From Sandaracinus amylolyticus (GTDB taxonomy: Bacteria > Myxococcota_A > Polyangia > Polyangiales > Sandaracinaceae), in contig NZ_CP011125.1 of NCBI RefSeq assembly GCF_000737325.1, positions 3,596,001-3,660,000 on the forward strand: a stretch of 64,000 nt of DNA, in the 5' to 3' direction. Within the stretch, counting starts at the first letter, position 1. The number at the start of each line of letters is the position of its first letter. The notes below the pieces were generated by a model that did no database searches, had not been told where the DNA came from, and saw nothing but the letters and a program-made list of their open reading frames with translations. The position numbers and the translations under genes are program-made. Below are positions 1,519 to 13,125 of the stretch, one piece after another.

Positions 1519-1598
1519 GCGCCGAGACCTCACGGCCGCTCGCTTTCTTGCCTCGCGCGCACCGCATCCGGGACGATCTCACCCGGAGGTCGGACGCC

Positions 1599-2141
1599 AT
1601 GCTGCAGTCGGTCGAGGTGCTCCCTGCCCACCGCGCGACGCTGCGCCGCGACGTGCGCATCGGATGCGAGCTGACGACGGATGCACACGGCGCGCGTCGC
1701 GAGCTGCTCGTCGACCTCTCGCCGCGCGGCGCGCGCGTGATGACCGACGCGACGCTCGCGCCCGGCGAGCACGTGCTCCTCGGGTTCGCCGACGAGCGGC
1801 TCGGGACACGCATCGAGACCCTCGCGCGCGTCGCGCACACCGCGCATGTCGCGATCGAGAAGCCGTCGATCGGCGTCGAGTTCGTCGCGCTGGACGGCGA
1901 CGTCGGCGACGCGCTCGCGCTGCGCCTGCGCCACGTGCCTCCGCCGCTCCCGCGTCGCCGCGCGCGGCGGGAGCTCGTGTGGATCGACGCGCTCGTCACG
2001 TGGGAAGAGGACCTCGGCGATCGCGTGAACGTCTTCGAGGTGAGCGACGCGCTCGCCGCGATCGACGACGACGACATCGCGATCGAGACGCTCGCGCCCG
2101 TGCTCACCGGCAGCGCGCCCGCGTATCGTTGGGTCTGCTGA
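1599..2141 (+). CDS. PilZ domain protein (predicted c-di-GMP receptor)
   Basis: 180-residue cytoplasmic protein with an N-terminal PilZ domain. Both ligand-binding motifs are intact: RRDVR (RxxxR) near residue 14 and DLSPRG (DxSxxG) near 37. Binding of cyclic di-GMP is therefore predicted from family knowledge. The C-terminal ~75 residues, with an Arg-rich stretch followed by an acidic helix-like segment, match nothing I recognise. ATG 1599 is chosen because GGAGGT at 1585-1590 lies 8 bases upstream; frames extending further upstream have no such site. The output could be motility, exopolysaccharide or transcription; context does not say. A second, unrelated PilZ gene lies at 8052-8504 on the other strand. 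Confidence 0.8.
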   Translation: MLQSVEVLPAHRATLRRDVRIGCELTTDAHGARRELLVDLSPRGARVMTDATLAPGEHVLLGFADERLGTRIETLARVAHTAHVAIEKPSIGVEFVALDGDVGDALALRLRHVPPPLPRRRARRELVWIDALVTWEEDLGDRVNVFEVSDALAAIDDDDIAIETLAPVLTGSAPAYRWVC

Positions 2142-2348: not shown

Positions 2349-3017
2349 GTGAGCGCCGCAGCGCGTGGTGGTCTCGCGTCTCGCGTCGCGCCCGAGAGCG
2401 CCGACATCGAGGCGTGTTATCGCGCGACCGATCTCGCGTGGCGCCTCAAGCAGATCCCGCACGGCGCGACGTGTCGAGGCGCGTTCTTCAACATGCTCGA
2501 CGACCGCGCCGCCACGCTCTCCGAGGAGACACAGCGCGAGTACCGGCGCTTCTTCCCGGTGCACCGGCTCTCGGCGTTTCGCATGTACTCGCTGCGCGAC
2601 TATCTCACGCGCATCGTGCTGCTCTCGCAGATCCACTACGGCGAGCACCAGATCCACGCGGGGCTGCGCGAGCTGCAGTCGGGCGCGTTCGATGCGTGGG
2701 CGGGCACGCTGCTCGGGCGCGCCGCGCTCGCGGTGGTCTCGCCCGATCTCCTGAGCGTGCTGCGCGTGCTCGAGCGTGCGTACGCGAGCCAGACGGTGGT
2801 GTCGCACGCGCGCTTCTCCGTCGAGTCGGCGGACGCGCGCACGATCATCACGCGCTTCAAGCAGGAGCACGTGTACATCGAGTCCGCGATGGTCGGTGCG
2901 CTCGAGGGCGTGGCGCGCACCTGCCGCGAGCGCGTCGAGGTCCGGGCCGAGCTCGATGGCCCCTTCGACGGTGTCGTGCGGATCCGGAGGCTCGGCTCGG
3001 AAGAGGACACCGCATGA
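2349..3017 (+). CDS. TIGR02265 (DUF2378)-like myxobacterial protein
   Basis: 222-residue soluble protein resembling the TIGR02265 paralogous family, which is largely restricted to myxobacteria and has no defined biochemical role. The resemblance is by pattern: an N-terminal RGAFFNML segment, a central YSLRDYLTRIVLL stretch, the block LLGRAALAVVSPDLLSVL and a C-terminal QEHVYIESAMVGALEG segment. No catalytic or metal motif is visible. The stop at 3015-3017 overlaps the ATG of the ThDP-enzyme gene (ATGA), so the two are translationally coupled, which ties this protein to that pathway. GTG 2349 is the only reasonable start in the open frame, without a strong ribosome binding site. Family assignment by eye is moderately sure. 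Confidence 0.65.
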   Translation: MSAAARGGLASRVAPESADIEACYRATDLAWRLKQIPHGATCRGAFFNMLDDRAATLSEETQREYRRFFPVHRLSAFRMYSLRDYLTRIVLLSQIHYGEHQIHAGLRELQSGAFDAWAGTLLGRAALAVVSPDLLSVLRVLERAYASQTVVSHARFSVESADARTIITRFKQEHVYIESAMVGALEGVARTCRERVEVRAELDGPFDGVVRIRRLGSEEDTA

Positions 3018-4687
3018 AGGGCACGGTCGCGCTGCAGCTGGTTGACGTGCTGCGCGATTTTGGTGTGGATGTGGTGTTCGGGATCCCGGGTGGTGCGATC
3101 AGCGCGCTCTATGCTGCGCTGCTCGAGCGCCCCGACGTCCGGATCATCACGACGAAGCACGAGTCGACCGCGGCGTTCCTCGCGATCGGCTACGCGATCG
3201 CGACCGGACGTCCGGGCGTGGTGCTCACGACCGCGGGGCCCGGGATCACGAACGCGGTGACCGGTGTCGCGAGCGCGTTCTACGAGGGCGTTCCGGTCGT
3301 GCACATCGCGGGCGAGGTCGCGCGCTCGGCGTTCGGGCGCGGCGCGCTGCAGGAAGGCTCACCGGCGGGCTTCGACGCCGTCGCGATCATGCGGCGCGTG
3401 ACCAAGATGAGCGTGATGCTCTCGCACCCAGGCCCGGCGACGTCGGTGCTGCGCAAGGCGCTCTCGACCGCGTACAGCGGGCGTCGCGGGCCGGTGTTCG
3501 TGTCGCTGCCGCTCGACGTCGCGTGCGCGAGCGTCGACGCGCAGCCGCTCTCGGGAAGCGTGCGCACCACGTTCGAGATCGACTCGGACGCGACGCGACG
3601 CGCGCTCGACATGCTGGAGCGCGCGCAGCGGCCGCTGATCCTCGCGGGTGCGGGCACGCGCGATCTCTCGGGGCGCCGCGCGCTGCGTCGTCTCGCCGAG
3701 CACGTGGGCGCGCCGGTGTGCGTGACCACGAAGGGCAAGGGCGTGTTCCCGGAAGACCACCCGCTCTTCCTGGGCGTGCTCGGGTTCGGCGGGCACGACT
3801 CCGTGATCTCGTACCTCGAGCGCGGCGTCGACGTGCTGCTCGCGGTCGGGAGCGGGCTCAACGACTTCACGACGAACGCGTGGTCGCCGCTGCTCCGCGC
3901 GACGCGCGCGTTCCTGCAGATCGACATCGACTCGGCGCAGCTCGGCAAGAACTACCCGATCGACCTCGGGCTCGTCGGGCCTGCGGATCAGGTGATCGGG
4001 CGCATGCTCGAGCATCGATCGGACGAGCGCGTGTCGAAGCCGCTCGGCCGCGGTCCGAGCCTCGTCGAGACGCAGCCGCTCGTGCCCTCGCCGAGCGGCG
4101 CGCTGACGACGATGGAGGTCGTGCTCGCGATGAACGAGGCGTGCCCGCGCGACGCGGTGTTCACCGCGGACATGGGCGAGCACCTCTCGGTGGCGCTGCA
4201 CTACCTGCGCGTCTCGGAGCACGGCGACTTCATCACGTGCCTCGGGTTCGGCTCGATGGGCTCGGGGATCGCGACCGCGATCGGGCACCAGCTCGGCGCG
4301 CCGCAGCGACGCACGTTCGCGATCTGCGGCGACGGCGGCTTCCTCATGTACGGCAACGAGCTCGCGACCGCGGTGCAGCACGGGCTGCGCGTCACGTTCG
4401 TCGTGATGAACGACAGCCGCCTGAACATGGTGCACCACGGCATGCACGACCTCTTCGGGCGCTCGCCGGACTTCACGACCTCGCCCGTCGACTTCGCGAT
4501 GATGGCGCGCAGCATGGGCGCCGAGGGCCACGTGGTGCGCACGCGGCTCGATCTCGTGCGGCTGCTCTCGGACGAAGCGGACGGGCCGGTGGTGCTCGAC
4601 GTGCGCTTCGACGCCGACGTGCGCCTCGCGGGCAACCAGCGCGTCGCCGCGCTGAAGCAGTTCGGGAGCTCGGAGCACGATGGGTGA
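3014..4687 (+). CDS. thiamine-diphosphate enzyme, acetolactate-synthase-like
   Basis: 557-residue cytoplasmic ThDP enzyme of the acetolactate synthase/benzoylformate decarboxylase superfamily. The catalytic Glu is Glu50 in the TTKHEST motif. The central nucleotide-fold domain follows, and the Mg/ThDP motif is GDG at 439-441 with Asn466 in VMNDSRLNMV. The full length fits an active enzyme. Reaction type inferred from the family is decarboxylation of a 2-oxoacid with carboligation to an aldehyde or acyl acceptor. It is probably not the housekeeping IlvB, because no regulatory subunit (ilvN/H) or ilvC adjoins; instead a KAS III-like gene overlaps it by 8 bp. An upstream ATGA overlap couples it to the TIGR02265 gene. 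Acyloin or alpha-hydroxyketone formation is plausible but unproven. Confidence 0.85.
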   Translation: MKGTVALQLVDVLRDFGVDVVFGIPGGAISALYAALLERPDVRIITTKHESTAAFLAIGYAIATGRPGVVLTTAGPGITNAVTGVASAFYEGVPVVHIAGEVARSAFGRGALQEGSPAGFDAVAIMRRVTKMSVMLSHPGPATSVLRKALSTAYSGRRGPVFVSLPLDVACASVDAQPLSGSVRTTFEIDSDATRRALDMLERAQRPLILAGAGTRDLSGRRALRRLAEHVGAPVCVTTKGKGVFPEDHPLFLGVLGFGGHDSVISYLERGVDVLLAVGSGLNDFTTNAWSPLLRATRAFLQIDIDSAQLGKNYPIDLGLVGPADQVIGRMLEHRSDERVSKPLGRGPSLVETQPLVPSPSGALTTMEVVLAMNEACPRDAVFTADMGEHLSVALHYLRVSEHGDFITCLGFGSMGSGIATAIGHQLGAPQRRTFAICGDGGFLMYGNELATAVQHGLRVTFVVMNDSRLNMVHHGMHDLFGRSPDFTTSPVDFAMMARSMGAEGHVVRTRLDLVRLLSDEADGPVVLDVRFDADVRLAGNQRVAALKQFGSSEHDG

Positions 4688-5813
4688 CGAAGGCGCGCGC
4701 GGGCTGCGCGGGATCGGGATCGTCGGGATCGGGACCGCGCTGCCGCCGAAGGTGCGCGACAATTCGTTCTGGAGCGGTGTGCTCGCGCCGCGCGACGAGA
4801 TGCAGCGGCGCGGCGACGTGCTCGCGGTCGAGCGCACGTCGTCGGGCGCGCGCACCGAGATGCCGCGCGAGATCGCCGACGCGATCGCAGCGACGGGCGA
4901 CGATCTCTTCCGCGGCGCGAAGCTGCGCCACGTGCTCGACGACGGCGCCGACGTCTCGGAGCTCGAGGCCGCCGCAGGACGCGCGGCGCTGCGCGATGCG
5001 GGGATCGATCCCGAGTCGATCGATCTCGTGCTCGTGCACTCGCTGATGCCCGATCGTTTGATCCCGTCGAACGCACCCGCGGTGCAGCACCGGCTCGGGC
5101 TCACGCGCGCGGCCGCGTGGAGCCTCGACGTGGGGTGCGCGAGCTTCCAGGCGCAGCTCGTCACGGCCGCGGCGCTGATCCGCGCGGGCACGTTCCGACG
5201 CGCGCTGATCGTGCAGTCGCATGCGGGAACGCGCTCCGTGGACCCGACGAGCGTCGCGTCGGTGAGCTTCGGCGACGGAGCAGCCGCCGCGGTGATCGAG
5301 CGTGTGCCCGACGGCTTCGGCGTGCTCGGGCACTACGCGCGCACCGACGGCTCGCTGCGCGACGGCATCGTGCTCGCGCCGGTGGTGGACGGCGCGCCTC
5401 GACGCACGTGGTGGGACGGGCAGGGCCGCATGCAGCTCGCGTCGTTCGACGCGGACGCCGGCAAGACCGCGGGGCTGCGCGCGGGCGAGTTCTGTCGCGA
5501 GGCGTGCAGCGGCGCGCTGCGTGATGCGGGCCTGACGCTCGACGACGTGGACCTCTACACGGGCAACCAGAGCCTGGGATGGTTCCTCGATGCGTGTCGT
5601 CGTTCGCTCGGTCTGCCGCGCGAGCGCACCGTCGACACGTTCGCGCGCATCGCGAACGTCGGTGATGCCGCGATCGTGTTCAACCTGCAGGAAGCGCGTC
5701 AGAAAGGGCGCCTCGAGCACGGTCGCGTCGCGCTGCTCTACTCGCCCGCGGCGGGCTTCACGCGCACCGCGGTCGTGGTGCGCTGGTACGATGTGCGCCG
5801 GTGCAGGGCGTGA
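4680..5813 (+). CDS. KAS III (FabH)-like condensing enzyme with altered active site
   Basis: 377-residue thiolase-fold protein of the 3-oxoacyl-ACP synthase III group. The acylation Cys is Cys153 in LDVGCASF, and the structural SFGDGA block is at 196-201. Where FabH has the His-Gln-Ala-Asn motif this protein reads NQSL (296-299), so the catalytic His and first Asn appear replaced. The second Asn seems kept (Asn327, in IANVGDAA). A Cys-only site would suit acyl transfer or a non-decarboxylating condensation better than normal FabH chemistry; that is inference. The start ATG overlaps the ThDP gene by 8 bp, and its own 3' end overlaps the kinase gene, so the three products are coupled. The gene is about 50 residues longer than typical FabH. 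Confidence 0.8.
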   Translation: MGDEGARGLRGIGIVGIGTALPPKVRDNSFWSGVLAPRDEMQRRGDVLAVERTSSGARTEMPREIADAIAATGDDLFRGAKLRHVLDDGADVSELEAAAGRAALRDAGIDPESIDLVLVHSLMPDRLIPSNAPAVQHRLGLTRAAAWSLDVGCASFQAQLVTAAALIRAGTFRRALIVQSHAGTRSVDPTSVASVSFGDGAAAAVIERVPDGFGVLGHYARTDGSLRDGIVLAPVVDGAPRRTWWDGQGRMQLASFDADAGKTAGLRAGEFCREACSGALRDAGLTLDDVDLYTGNQSLGWFLDACRRSLGLPRERTVDTFARIANVGDAAIVFNLQEARQKGRLEHGRVALLYSPAAGFTRTAVVVRWYDVRRCRA

Positions 5814-7366
5814 GCAGTAGCGGTCCCGTCGTCGCGTTCCTCGCATGGTCGCGGCCCGAGCTCGCCGACCATCTGGTCGAGGCGTCGCGCGACGAGCTCG
5901 AGATCGCGCTCGCGTGGGCCGCGGGCGAGCCGCTCCCAGAGCTACGCGGCGGCACCGTGCTCCTGGTGGAGCTCGGTGACCACGGCGCCGCCTCGATCGC
6001 GCGCGCGAACAGCTTGAGCGCCGCGTTCCCGGAGCTGCTCGTCGTGCCGGTGGTGCACGACGCGGTCGATCTCGACATCGAGCGCGCGCTGCGCGAGGGC
6101 GGCGCGGCGGACGTGGTCGACACCGCGGATCTCGAGCGCGGGATGATGCGCGTCGTCGCGCTCGCGCGGCGCGTGATCGGGATGCGCGAAGAGCGCGCGC
6201 GGCTGACGGCGGGGCTCGCGCACAGCGAGCGGCTCACCGCGATCGGCCTGCTCGCGGCGGGCGTCGGTCACGAGATCAACAACCCGAGCACCGCGATCCT
6301 CGCGAACACCGAGCGCGTGCGGCAGGAGATCGAGGCCGTGCTCTCGCGCCCGCGCTTCCAGCAGGCGGAGGTGCTGCACCAACGCGCGAGCGACTGGCTC
6401 GAGGCGCTCGGCGACGTGCTCGCGGCGTCGCGCCGCATCACGTCGATCGTGCGCGCGCTGCACGTGTTCTCGCGGAAGAACGAGGACGACTCGCGCCCCG
6501 AGCCCACGTCGATCAACGACGACGTGCAGACGGTGATGCGCCTCGTCGGGCGCGAGGTTCGTTATCAAGCGAAGGTCGATCTCGATCTCGCCGCGGACCT
6601 CCCGTACGTGATGGCGCCGCCGCACGCGCTCACGCAGGTGGTGACGAACCTGGTCGTGAACGCGCTGCAGGCGCTCGAGTCGATCGCGCTCGAGACGCGC
6701 CGGCTTCGCGTCACGACGAGCCACGACGACGAGGCGGTGTGCCTCGAGGTCGCCGACAACGGCCCGGGGATCGCGCCGGAGACGCTGGAGCGCATCTTCG
6801 ATCCGTTCTTCACGACGAAGGAGATCGGCGCGGGCACCGGGCTCGGCCTCTCGATCACGCGCGAGCTGGTGCGGCGCTGTGGAGGCGAGATCTTCGTCGA
6901 GAGCGAGCCCGGCTTCGGCGCGCGCTTCCGCGTGATCCTGCCGCGCGGACGAAGGACGCACGCGATGCCGCGCGCGGTGTCGCAGCCGCCGCCGCGGGCG
7001 AGCCGACTGCGCTTGTTGATCGTCGAGGACGACGAGCTGCTGCTGCGCGCGATGACGAGCTCGCTCGCCGACGACTTCGAGTGCACGCCGGCGCCGAGCG
7101 GCCCGATCGCGCTGCAGCTCGTGCGCAGCGAGGAGCGCTTCGACGCGCTGCTGAGCGACATCGTGATGCCGGGCATGGACGGCCTGCGTCTCTACGAGGA
7201 GATCGTCGAGATCGACCCGAGGCTCGCGGCGCGCACGCTGTTCGTGTCGGGCGGACTGCGGTCCGAGACACTGCAGCGCGCCCTGCTCGAGACCGGACGC
7301 CCGCTGCTGGCGAAGCCGTTCTCGATGCGCGACCTCGCGCGCCGAATCCGCGAAGTCGCGGCGTAG
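5801..7366 (+). CDS. hybrid histidine kinase with N-terminal pseudo-receiver and C-terminal receiver
   Basis: 521-residue soluble sensor kinase. Residues ~5-125 look like a degenerate response-regulator fold. They are followed by HisKA with the phosphorylatable His157 (GVGHEINNP), a HATPase domain with DNGPGIAPE and GTGLGLSI, and a C-terminal receiver whose acceptor is Asp453 ([12 protein letters not shown]) with the conserved Lys in LLAKPFS. There is no membrane segment, so the input is cytoplasmic or protein-borne. GTG 5801 overlaps the KAS III gene by 13 bp; GTG 5810 is an alternative in the same frame. The coupling suggests that it senses or controls the pathway of the ThDP/KAS III pair. 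No DNA-binding regulator lies beside it. Confidence 0.88.
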
Positions 7367-7370
7367 GCCA

Positions 7371-7625
7371 CGTCCGAGTCCGTGTCCGCGTCGGAGTCGG
7401 CGTCCGCGTCAGCGTCGGAGTCGGCGTCCGCGTCGGCGGCGGCGTCAGCGTCCGCGTCGGCGTCGGCGTCCGTGTCCGCGTCGGCGTCCGTGTCCGCGTC
7501 GGCGTCCGTGTCCGCGTCGGAGTCCGCGTCCGTGTCCGCGTCCGCGTCGAAATTCGCGTCCGCGTCGGCGTCCGTGTCCGCGTCGGCGTCCGTGTCCGCG
7601 TCGGAGTCCGTGTCCGCGTCGGAGC
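7371..7625. repeat. degenerate 6-bp tandem array with 18-bp higher-order units
   Basis: About 255 bp built from hexamers of the type NGTCSG (for example CGTCCG, CGTCGG, TGTCCG), beginning 5 bases after the kinase stop. In the middle three consecutive copies form an 18-bp unit, CGTCGGCGTCCGTGTCCG. Because the period is a multiple of 3, every frame stays open: Ser/Ala repeats on one strand, Asp/Ala/Thr repeats on the other. I see no ribosome binding site or codon pattern that would make it a gene. It is most likely a variable-number repeat in a convergent gap. Confidence 0.85.
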
Positions 7626-12846: not shown

Positions 12847-12854
12847 CGCCCGTC

Positions 12855-13125
12855 GCCGAATCTCGGAGATTCACCGGGCGATTCTGAAATCGATCGCCGA
12901 ATCTCGGAGATTCACCGGGCGATTCTGGAATCGATCGCCGAATCTCGGAGATTCGCCCGCCGGTTCTGAAATCGATCGCCGAATCTCGGAGATTCACCGG
13001 GCGATTCTGGAATCGATCGCCGAATCTCGGAGATTCACCCGGCGGTTCTGAAATCGATCGCCGAATCTCGGAGATTCACCGGTCGATTCTGAAATCGATC
13101 GCCGAATCTCCGAGATTCACCGGCT
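12855..13125. repeat. 41-bp tandem array, seven units, each with two dyads
   Basis: Units begin at 12855, 12896, 12937, 12978, 13019, 13060 and 13101 (the last truncated); the period is exactly 41. Each unit carries GAATCTC-G-GAGATTC, a 7-bp dyad around one base, and a second segment ending ATTCTGAAATCGATC or ATTCTGGAATCGATC. The GG version makes another dyad, CGATTC-TG-GAATCG. Units 2 and 4 are identical; the others differ by a few bases. The array fills the convergent gap between the M23 gene and the dehydratase gene. There are no unique spacers. Confidence 0.95.

Follow-up and report, generated by a model that had tools for sequence, protein, structure and literature searches.

Does a bacterial operon that sets a predicted carbon-carbon bond-forming enzyme and an acyl-handling partner beside a histidine kinase generate a small molecule that is then sensed by the products of the same operon? 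The question is raised by four genes in Sandaracinus amylolyticus, found within a stretch of 64,000 nucleotides (contig NZ_CP011125.1; G000:C1:3596001-3660000 in our numbering, referred to below as 'the window') of a genome that is assembled as a single contig of 10.33 Mb. Four plus-strand open reading frames, spanning window positions 2349-7366, encode in order a DUF2378 protein, a thiamine diphosphate (ThDP)-dependent carboligase, an enzyme resembling ketoacyl-acyl carrier protein synthase III (KAS III), and a hybrid histidine kinase (HK). An earlier note on this DNA had described end-to-start overlaps of 4 bp (ATGA), 8 bp and 13 bp between these genes, and all three were found as described. 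Comparative sequence analysis strongly supports a carboligase and KAS III unit that is coupled to two-component signalling, and the operon appears to represent a means, so far undescribed, by which a cell both produces a compound and reacts to it.

Conservation and co-divergence of the four genes

The earlier note had proposed a search for the same gene order in other myxobacterial genomes, and that order was recovered at ten loci, in two divergent versions. Version A comprises the window, a locus from the same genus (L125), and L006, L007, L008 and L011; version B comprises L226, L228, L229 and L230, in which the ThDP enzymes are 33-34% and the DUF2378 proteins 22-24% identical to those of the window. 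The order was found in Sandaracinus, in other Sandaracinaceae and in other Myxococcota; among ten genomes of the family, and at the thresholds used, version A is present in four (G000, G002, G004 and G008) and version B in three (G003, G007 and G009). Since gene order and short overlaps recur together in the nine loci beyond the window, across both versions, the clustering of the four genes is not the product of chance, and a scattering of their orthologues among related genomes was not observed. The identity matrices of the four proteins across the ten loci are correlated (Mantel r 0.91-0.96, P 0.0002), which indicates that the genes have diverged together. Partial or rearranged operons occur at L129, L135 and L136. 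In a tree of 70 rows, the DUF2378-type operons fall into three lineages that are separated by ThDP-KAS pairs lacking a kinase.

A carboligase that is distinct from acetolactate synthase

The window ThDP protein displays the features of the ThDP carboligase superfamily, with Pfam N, M and C domains (126, 125 and 116 bits, respectively), the catalytic glutamate and the GDG...N motif. Its nearest solved relatives, which are nonetheless distant, are BbmA (8x3x; E 4e-101, 342 bits) and CsmA (8x3z; E 2e-88, 301 bits), whereas the acetohydroxyacid synthase (AHAS) entries of the PDB match at E 2e-65 (E. coli AHAS I) or more weakly. Searches for literature on BbmA and CsmA (in the open literature), on the bacillimidazole enzymes and on stigmolone biosynthesis yielded no usable paper.

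A further explanation of the locus, that the enzyme is a housekeeping acetolactate synthase with neighbours gathered by chance, draws on the best NCBIfam match, the acetolactate synthase model TIGR00118, although the score of 346 bits lies well under the cut-off of 538. In a tree of 110 rows, the window enzyme falls within a myxobacterial clade of 39 rows (SH-like approximate likelihood ratio test, SH-aLRT, 100), the sister of which consists of CsmA and a Paenibacillus enzyme (support 88); an AHAS-like copy from the same genome (L087) clusters with the E. coli and yeast AHAS enzymes, and the window enzyme does not. In AHAS, the second arginine of the RFDDR motif (yeast R380) binds the second 2-keto acid. 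That residue is present in 10 of 10 AHAS and 19 of 19 outgroup rows, and in none of the 39 clade rows or the 36 BbmA-like rows; phenylalanine occupies the position in the window enzyme, and tryptophan and threonine occupy it in BbmA and CsmA. The catalytic glutamate is retained in every row that covers its site. The tree and the arginine test exclude the identity with housekeeping IlvB that the earlier note had set against its own proposal, and together with the conserved operon they leave this explanation scarcely credible; we regard it as refuted. Loss of the acceptor arginine with retention of the glutamate suggests instead that the enzyme likely performs carboligation with an acceptor other than that of AHAS. 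A second, acetolactate synthase-like ThDP enzyme (32% identity) is encoded approximately 13 kb upstream in an unrelated neighbourhood (G000:C1:3584684-3586240; L145:6664-8301).

The genomic surroundings of the 39-row clade set it further apart. A KAS gene is located in the same directon for 28 of its 39 members and for none of 31 control ThDP enzymes (Fisher 6e-11), and signalling genes for 26 of the 39 and one of the 31 (Fisher 1.5e-8); these P values are optimistic, because the sequences are related and their independence is overstated, and contig ends lower the counts for the clade.

The KAS III-like partner and the possibility of a natural product

The third protein matches both fold domains of its family (ACP_syn_III, 52 bits; ACP_syn_III_C, 63 bits). 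It retains the acyl cysteine but carries asparagine in place of the catalytic histidine (C-N-N), and therefore departs from the Cys-His-Asn triad of FabH. The second operon version displays C-V-H, and some relatives C-H-N; of 47 ThDP-linked KAS-like proteins, 41 have the cysteine and six do not, a count that includes a few near-duplicates. As judged from these sequences, a role as an acyl carrier or transferase is more likely than malonyl decarboxylation. Because a search with the KAS profile by itself recovered a ThDP gene adjacent to, or one gene away from, its target in 13 of 18 further loci inspected, the ThDP-KAS pair is very likely a functional unit.

Comparable pairs are known from natural-product pathways, among them the xenocyloin system (XclA/XclB/XclC), which is also built on ThDP and KAS III-like enzymes. 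In carbazole biosynthesis, an acyloin-type keto acid is handled first by the ThDP enzyme CqsB3 and then by the KAS III-like enzyme CqsB1, and the carquinostatin (CqsB3/CqsB1) and neocarazostatin (NzsH/NzsJ) systems share with the window operon the pairing of a ThDP carboligase with a KAS III-like enzyme (PMC7466098). As described, those clusters possess tailoring genes and lack a dedicated kinase or H-NOX-fold sensor. The main competing explanation is that the operon belongs to such a pathway, with a metabolite that acts outward (as an antibiotic or in predation) while the kinase responds to something else, such as nutrients, prey or redox state. The kinship of the ThDP enzyme with BbmA and CsmA fits that explanation, as do tailoring genes near related ThDP-KAS pairs: a tryptophan halogenase (L225), an alpha/beta-hydrolase with a short-chain dehydrogenase/reductase (L127), a hydrolase-KAS fusion (L128), and a glyoxalase-like protein with a hydrolase (L227). 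The window-type operons, however, consist of four genes only; genes for tailoring, export or resistance are absent from them, and the divergence of the enzymes is matched by that of the sensor and the kinase. We consider this explanation rather unlikely.

A predicted H-NOX fold without its heme ligand

According to an earlier study, the DUF2378 family is found only in myxobacteria and has no assigned function (PMC9257966). The window protein scores 29.1 bits against PF09536 (cut-off 22.2) and 22.1 bits against TIGR02265, slightly under the cut-off of 25. Its AlphaFold2 model (mean predicted local distance difference test score, pLDDT, 88.6) has H-NOX proteins as its best matches in both structure comparisons (Foldseek E 1.4e-5; VIA Z 16.4, 3.1 Å over 175 residues, 4u99_A), and the first match outside that family is TRAPP/Bet3, at Z 9.8. 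In the alignment of 9-11 DUF2378 rows, no invariant histidine that could serve as heme ligand was found (at most 6 of 9 in any column), and the YxSxR motif is missing from the window protein and is not conserved in the family rows. The protein is thus predicted to possess an H-NOX fold without the heme-ligand histidine, an assignment that is new in the present analysis. The earlier note had named the protein by its TIGR02265 resemblance and had given it no known role; the name itself falls below threshold, and the role can now be phrased in terms of a predicted fold and a genomic association.

That association is specific. A tree built from 32 DUF2378 proteins groups the 13 ThDP-linked members with one additional copy in a clade (ultrafast bootstrap 95 / SH-aLRT 94); the additional copy (G008:C307, locus L270) has a ThDP gene after it, at the contig end, with a kinase gene diverging, and represents a DUF2378-ThDP pair additional to the version A operon of that genome. 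All 14 clade members adjoin a ThDP gene, compared with 0 of 18 paralogues outside the clade, which have no ThDP gene closer than approximately 1.5 kb, and on this sequence evidence the ThDP-linked proteins appear to constitute a dedicated subfamily. A DUF2378 gene has been reported to be induced by the prey signal 2-heptyl-4-quinolone (HHQ) in two myxobacteria (PMC9257966), an observation that favours the outward-acting metabolite considered above.

Sister operons with a kinase-fused counterpart

A related group of operons in Kofleriaceae, Labilithrix and others (L014, L015, L018-L020 and L132) encodes, in order, a helix-turn-helix receiver protein (HTH-REC, 199 aa), a ThDP enzyme with 40-45% identity to that of the window, a KAS protein, a hybrid kinase of approximately 1000 aa and a REC-kinase of approximately 390 aa. 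The first 235 residues of the sister hybrid kinase have no Pfam match; their model (pLDDT 86) again has H-NOX as its best match (Foldseek E 3.9e-5; Z 14.0 for 161 residues), and VirS is matched as well, through its ligand-binding domain (Z 11.6). The sequence test again found neither an invariant histidine nor a conserved YxSxR motif in this domain. Because both H-NOX-fold families lack these features, heme-based gas sensing is unlikely, and the models leave an organic ligand as the simplest alternative. The kinase domain is a candidate for a new domain family; the S. amylolyticus genome has one copy, outside the window (G000:C1:8035818-8036378, alignment A2).

At three loci (L021:7548-9683, L055:7485-9698 and L027:5659-7800), HTH-REC is fused to the ThDP enzyme in proteins of 711-737 aa; a ThDP carboligase that carries its own receiver domain is unusual.

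The hybrid kinase

The window kinase comprises an N-terminal part of approximately 130 aa without an assigned domain, a HisKA/HATPase_c core and a C-terminal receiver (HATPase_c, 95 bits; Response_reg, 57 bits); HisKA scores 20.4 bits, below its cut-off, although the H-box is readable. A degenerate receiver in the N-terminal part appeared plausible by eye and was not supported by hhalign. No hydrophobic stretch of the membrane-helix type was found in any of the four operon proteins (Kyte-Doolittle 19-residue mean <=1.62), and the kinase is therefore judged to be soluble, as the earlier note had stated.

A proposed synthase-sensor mechanism and the evidence against it

The reading that we favour, and hold to be somewhat probable, is that the product of the ThDP and KAS enzymes is sensed by the H-NOX-fold DUF2378 protein and that the signal is relayed to the kinase. 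The ThDP enzyme would draw an acyl anion from a 2-keto acid (or an aldehyde), the KAS III-like protein would carry an acyl group on its cysteine, and the pair would form a small hydrophobic product of the acyloin (alpha-hydroxyketone) or 1,2-dicarbonyl type. Because the predicted H-NOX fold lacks the heme-ligand histidine, DUF2378 is proposed to bind not nitric oxide (NO) or O2 but an organic molecule, of which the product of its own operon is the simplest candidate. The liganded protein would then switch the cytosolic hybrid kinase, the receiver domain of which would hand its phosphate to a regulator from another part of the genome; in the sister operons, the domain with the predicted H-NOX fold is part of the kinase itself, and the first gene encodes the HTH-receiver regulator. 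The product might either leave the cell, as a quorum signal, or be sensed inside it, as feedback.

The earlier note had likewise proposed a synthase whose product is sensed. The coupling of the enzyme unit to signalling is now backed by comparison, and the sensing step is better motivated, because DUF2378 and the sister kinase N-terminus both model as H-NOX folds; the identity of the product, its export, and the contact of DUF2378 with ligand and kinase are what we infer from these features. The strongest argument for sensing is the recurrence of this fold next to the ThDP-KAS pair in two forms that do not look related. A precedent for the relay is provided by H-NOX proteins, which bind and regulate histidine kinases, and in particular by the NO-sensing H-NOX/HnoK (HqsK) pairs, in which a stand-alone H-NOX-fold protein is encoded with a histidine kinase (PMC8738867). 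DUF2378 differs from those proteins in lacking the conserved heme histidine and YxSxR, in its low identity to them (10-14%), and in being encoded with a synthase.

Several observations weigh against this proposal: (i) none of the other DUF2378 copies in the S. amylolyticus genome lies beside a kinase, and a general rule that DUF2378 adjoins kinases was dropped; (ii) two loci (L009/L010) carry DUF2378, ThDP and HK genes without KAS, and six ThDP-KAS pairs (L013, L023, L025, L026, L134 and L143) have no kinase nearby; (iii) there is no transporter gene within the four-gene operon; (iv) hhalign detected no sequence relation between DUF2378 and the sister kinase N-terminus, so that their link is one of predicted fold; and (v) the kinase-type H-NOX-like domain also occurs away from ThDP loci: of 377 Myxococcota genomes, 81 have a match, for the most part where the genome or contig has no close ThDP match, and the fold may therefore sense other ligands.

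The solubility of all four proteins would also suit a different arrangement, in which the ThDP enzyme works on central 2-keto acids and DUF2378 and the kinase merely report a keto acid or acyl-CoA, with no dedicated signal. The signalling genes that precede a Paenibacillus ThDP gene (HD-domain, REC-GGDEF and GAF-kinase) are generic neighbours, in keeping with such feedback. Against it stand the loss of the AHAS acceptor arginine, the separation of the enzyme from the IlvB-like enzyme of its own genome, and the KAS pairing, which implies a dedicated acyl substrate; we consider this arrangement improbable.

Relation to known signalling systems

Among the closest parallels to our preferred synthase-sensor reading are CqsA/CqsS, LqsA/LqsS and JqsA/JqsS, which share with it a synthase beside a sensor kinase and an alpha-hydroxyketone as the proposed product class. 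CqsA-type synthases are pyridoxal phosphate (PLP) enzymes. Among the Pfam domains of the operon's synthase genes only those of ThDP and KAS III enzymes were found, and no PLP-dependent synthase of the CqsA type; the sensor is predicted to have an H-NOX fold, and the window kinase, lacking any hydrophobic segment, is not a membrane-embedded sensor like CqsS. A signal synthase stands beside a sensor kinase in the jqsA-jqsS-jqsR cluster (PMC5080296), and CqsS is described as membrane-bound (PMC3285556). Because the synthase family is another one and the kinase is soluble, the operon is not classed with CqsA/CqsS; the comparison drawn in the earlier note stands as a functional analogy and not as family membership.

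A broader possibility, more tentative than the mechanism itself, is that Myxococcota use a class of acyloin-type cell-cell signals made by ThDP and KAS III enzymes and perceived by heme-less H-NOX-fold receptors, either stand-alone (DUF2378) or kinase-fused. If true, this signalling class would be undescribed, and DUF2378 would gain its first function. The models suggest that H-NOX, a fold familiar from heme-based gas sensing, has been reused in this phylum to sense organic molecules produced by neighbouring genes. Myxobacteria serve as models of bacterial social life, and few of their small-molecule signals are known; the compact cassette of synthase, sensor and kinase is concrete and open to knockout tests, and DUF2378 already gains a predicted fold and a testable role.

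Features of the locus and additional observations

Table 1. Coordinates of the operon and its upstream neighbour, in window positions
Feature	Position	Strand	Basis and remarks
DUF2378/TIGR02265-like protein, 222 aa; predicted heme-less H-NOX fold, proposed ligand sensor	2349..3017	+	GTG start; PF09536, AlphaFold2 model
ThDP-dependent carboligase, 557 aa, BbmA/CsmA-like	3014..4687	+	ATG start; Pfam, PDB matches, tree, residue test
KAS III-like enzyme, 377 aa, C-N-N	4680..5813	+	ATG start; Pfam, alignments
Soluble hybrid histidine kinase, 521 aa	5801..7366	+	GTG start; domain matches, hydrophobicity
ATGA stop/start overlap, DUF2378-ThDP	3014..3017	+	Kept in L006, L007, L009, L011, L125
PilZ-domain gene, 207 bp upstream of operon, outside conserved unit	1587..2141	+	Pfam, locus comparison

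The operon is followed by a repeat tract of approximately 250 bp and then by genes on the opposite strand. The tract (7371-7622) begins directly after the hybrid-kinase stop codon and consists of tandem 18/24-bp units built from GTCCGC/GTCGGC; a 41-bp tandem repeat is found at 12853-13123 (6.6 copies, 92% match; TCGCCGAATCTCGGAGATTCACC...).

Additional ThDP contexts were encountered elsewhere. An operon at L225:4093-8570 has the order ThDP, tryptophan halogenase, KAS III, which suggests a halogenated, indole-derived natural product of the acyloin type, and at L128:9263-11491 a ThDP gene adjoins the gene for a 742-aa fusion of a KAS III-like enzyme with an alpha/beta-hydrolase. In Paenibacillus eucommiae (L048:4125-9629), genes for an HD-domain protein, a REC-GGDEF protein, a GAF histidine kinase and a CsmA-like ThDP enzyme lie in a row, and in Elusimicrobia (L032, L033 and L038) ThDP genes directly follow an HTH-receiver gene that resembles those of the Kofleriaceae operons. 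Finally, a separate ThDP clade from Nannocystaceae and other Myxococcota (L043, L045, L050, L115/L142 and relatives) represents another kinase-coupled ThDP system: in its gene order, a 560-aa HATPase_c protein is followed by the ThDP enzyme, a protein of approximately 230 aa without a Pfam match, and one of approximately 260 aa that is weakly citrate synthase-like.

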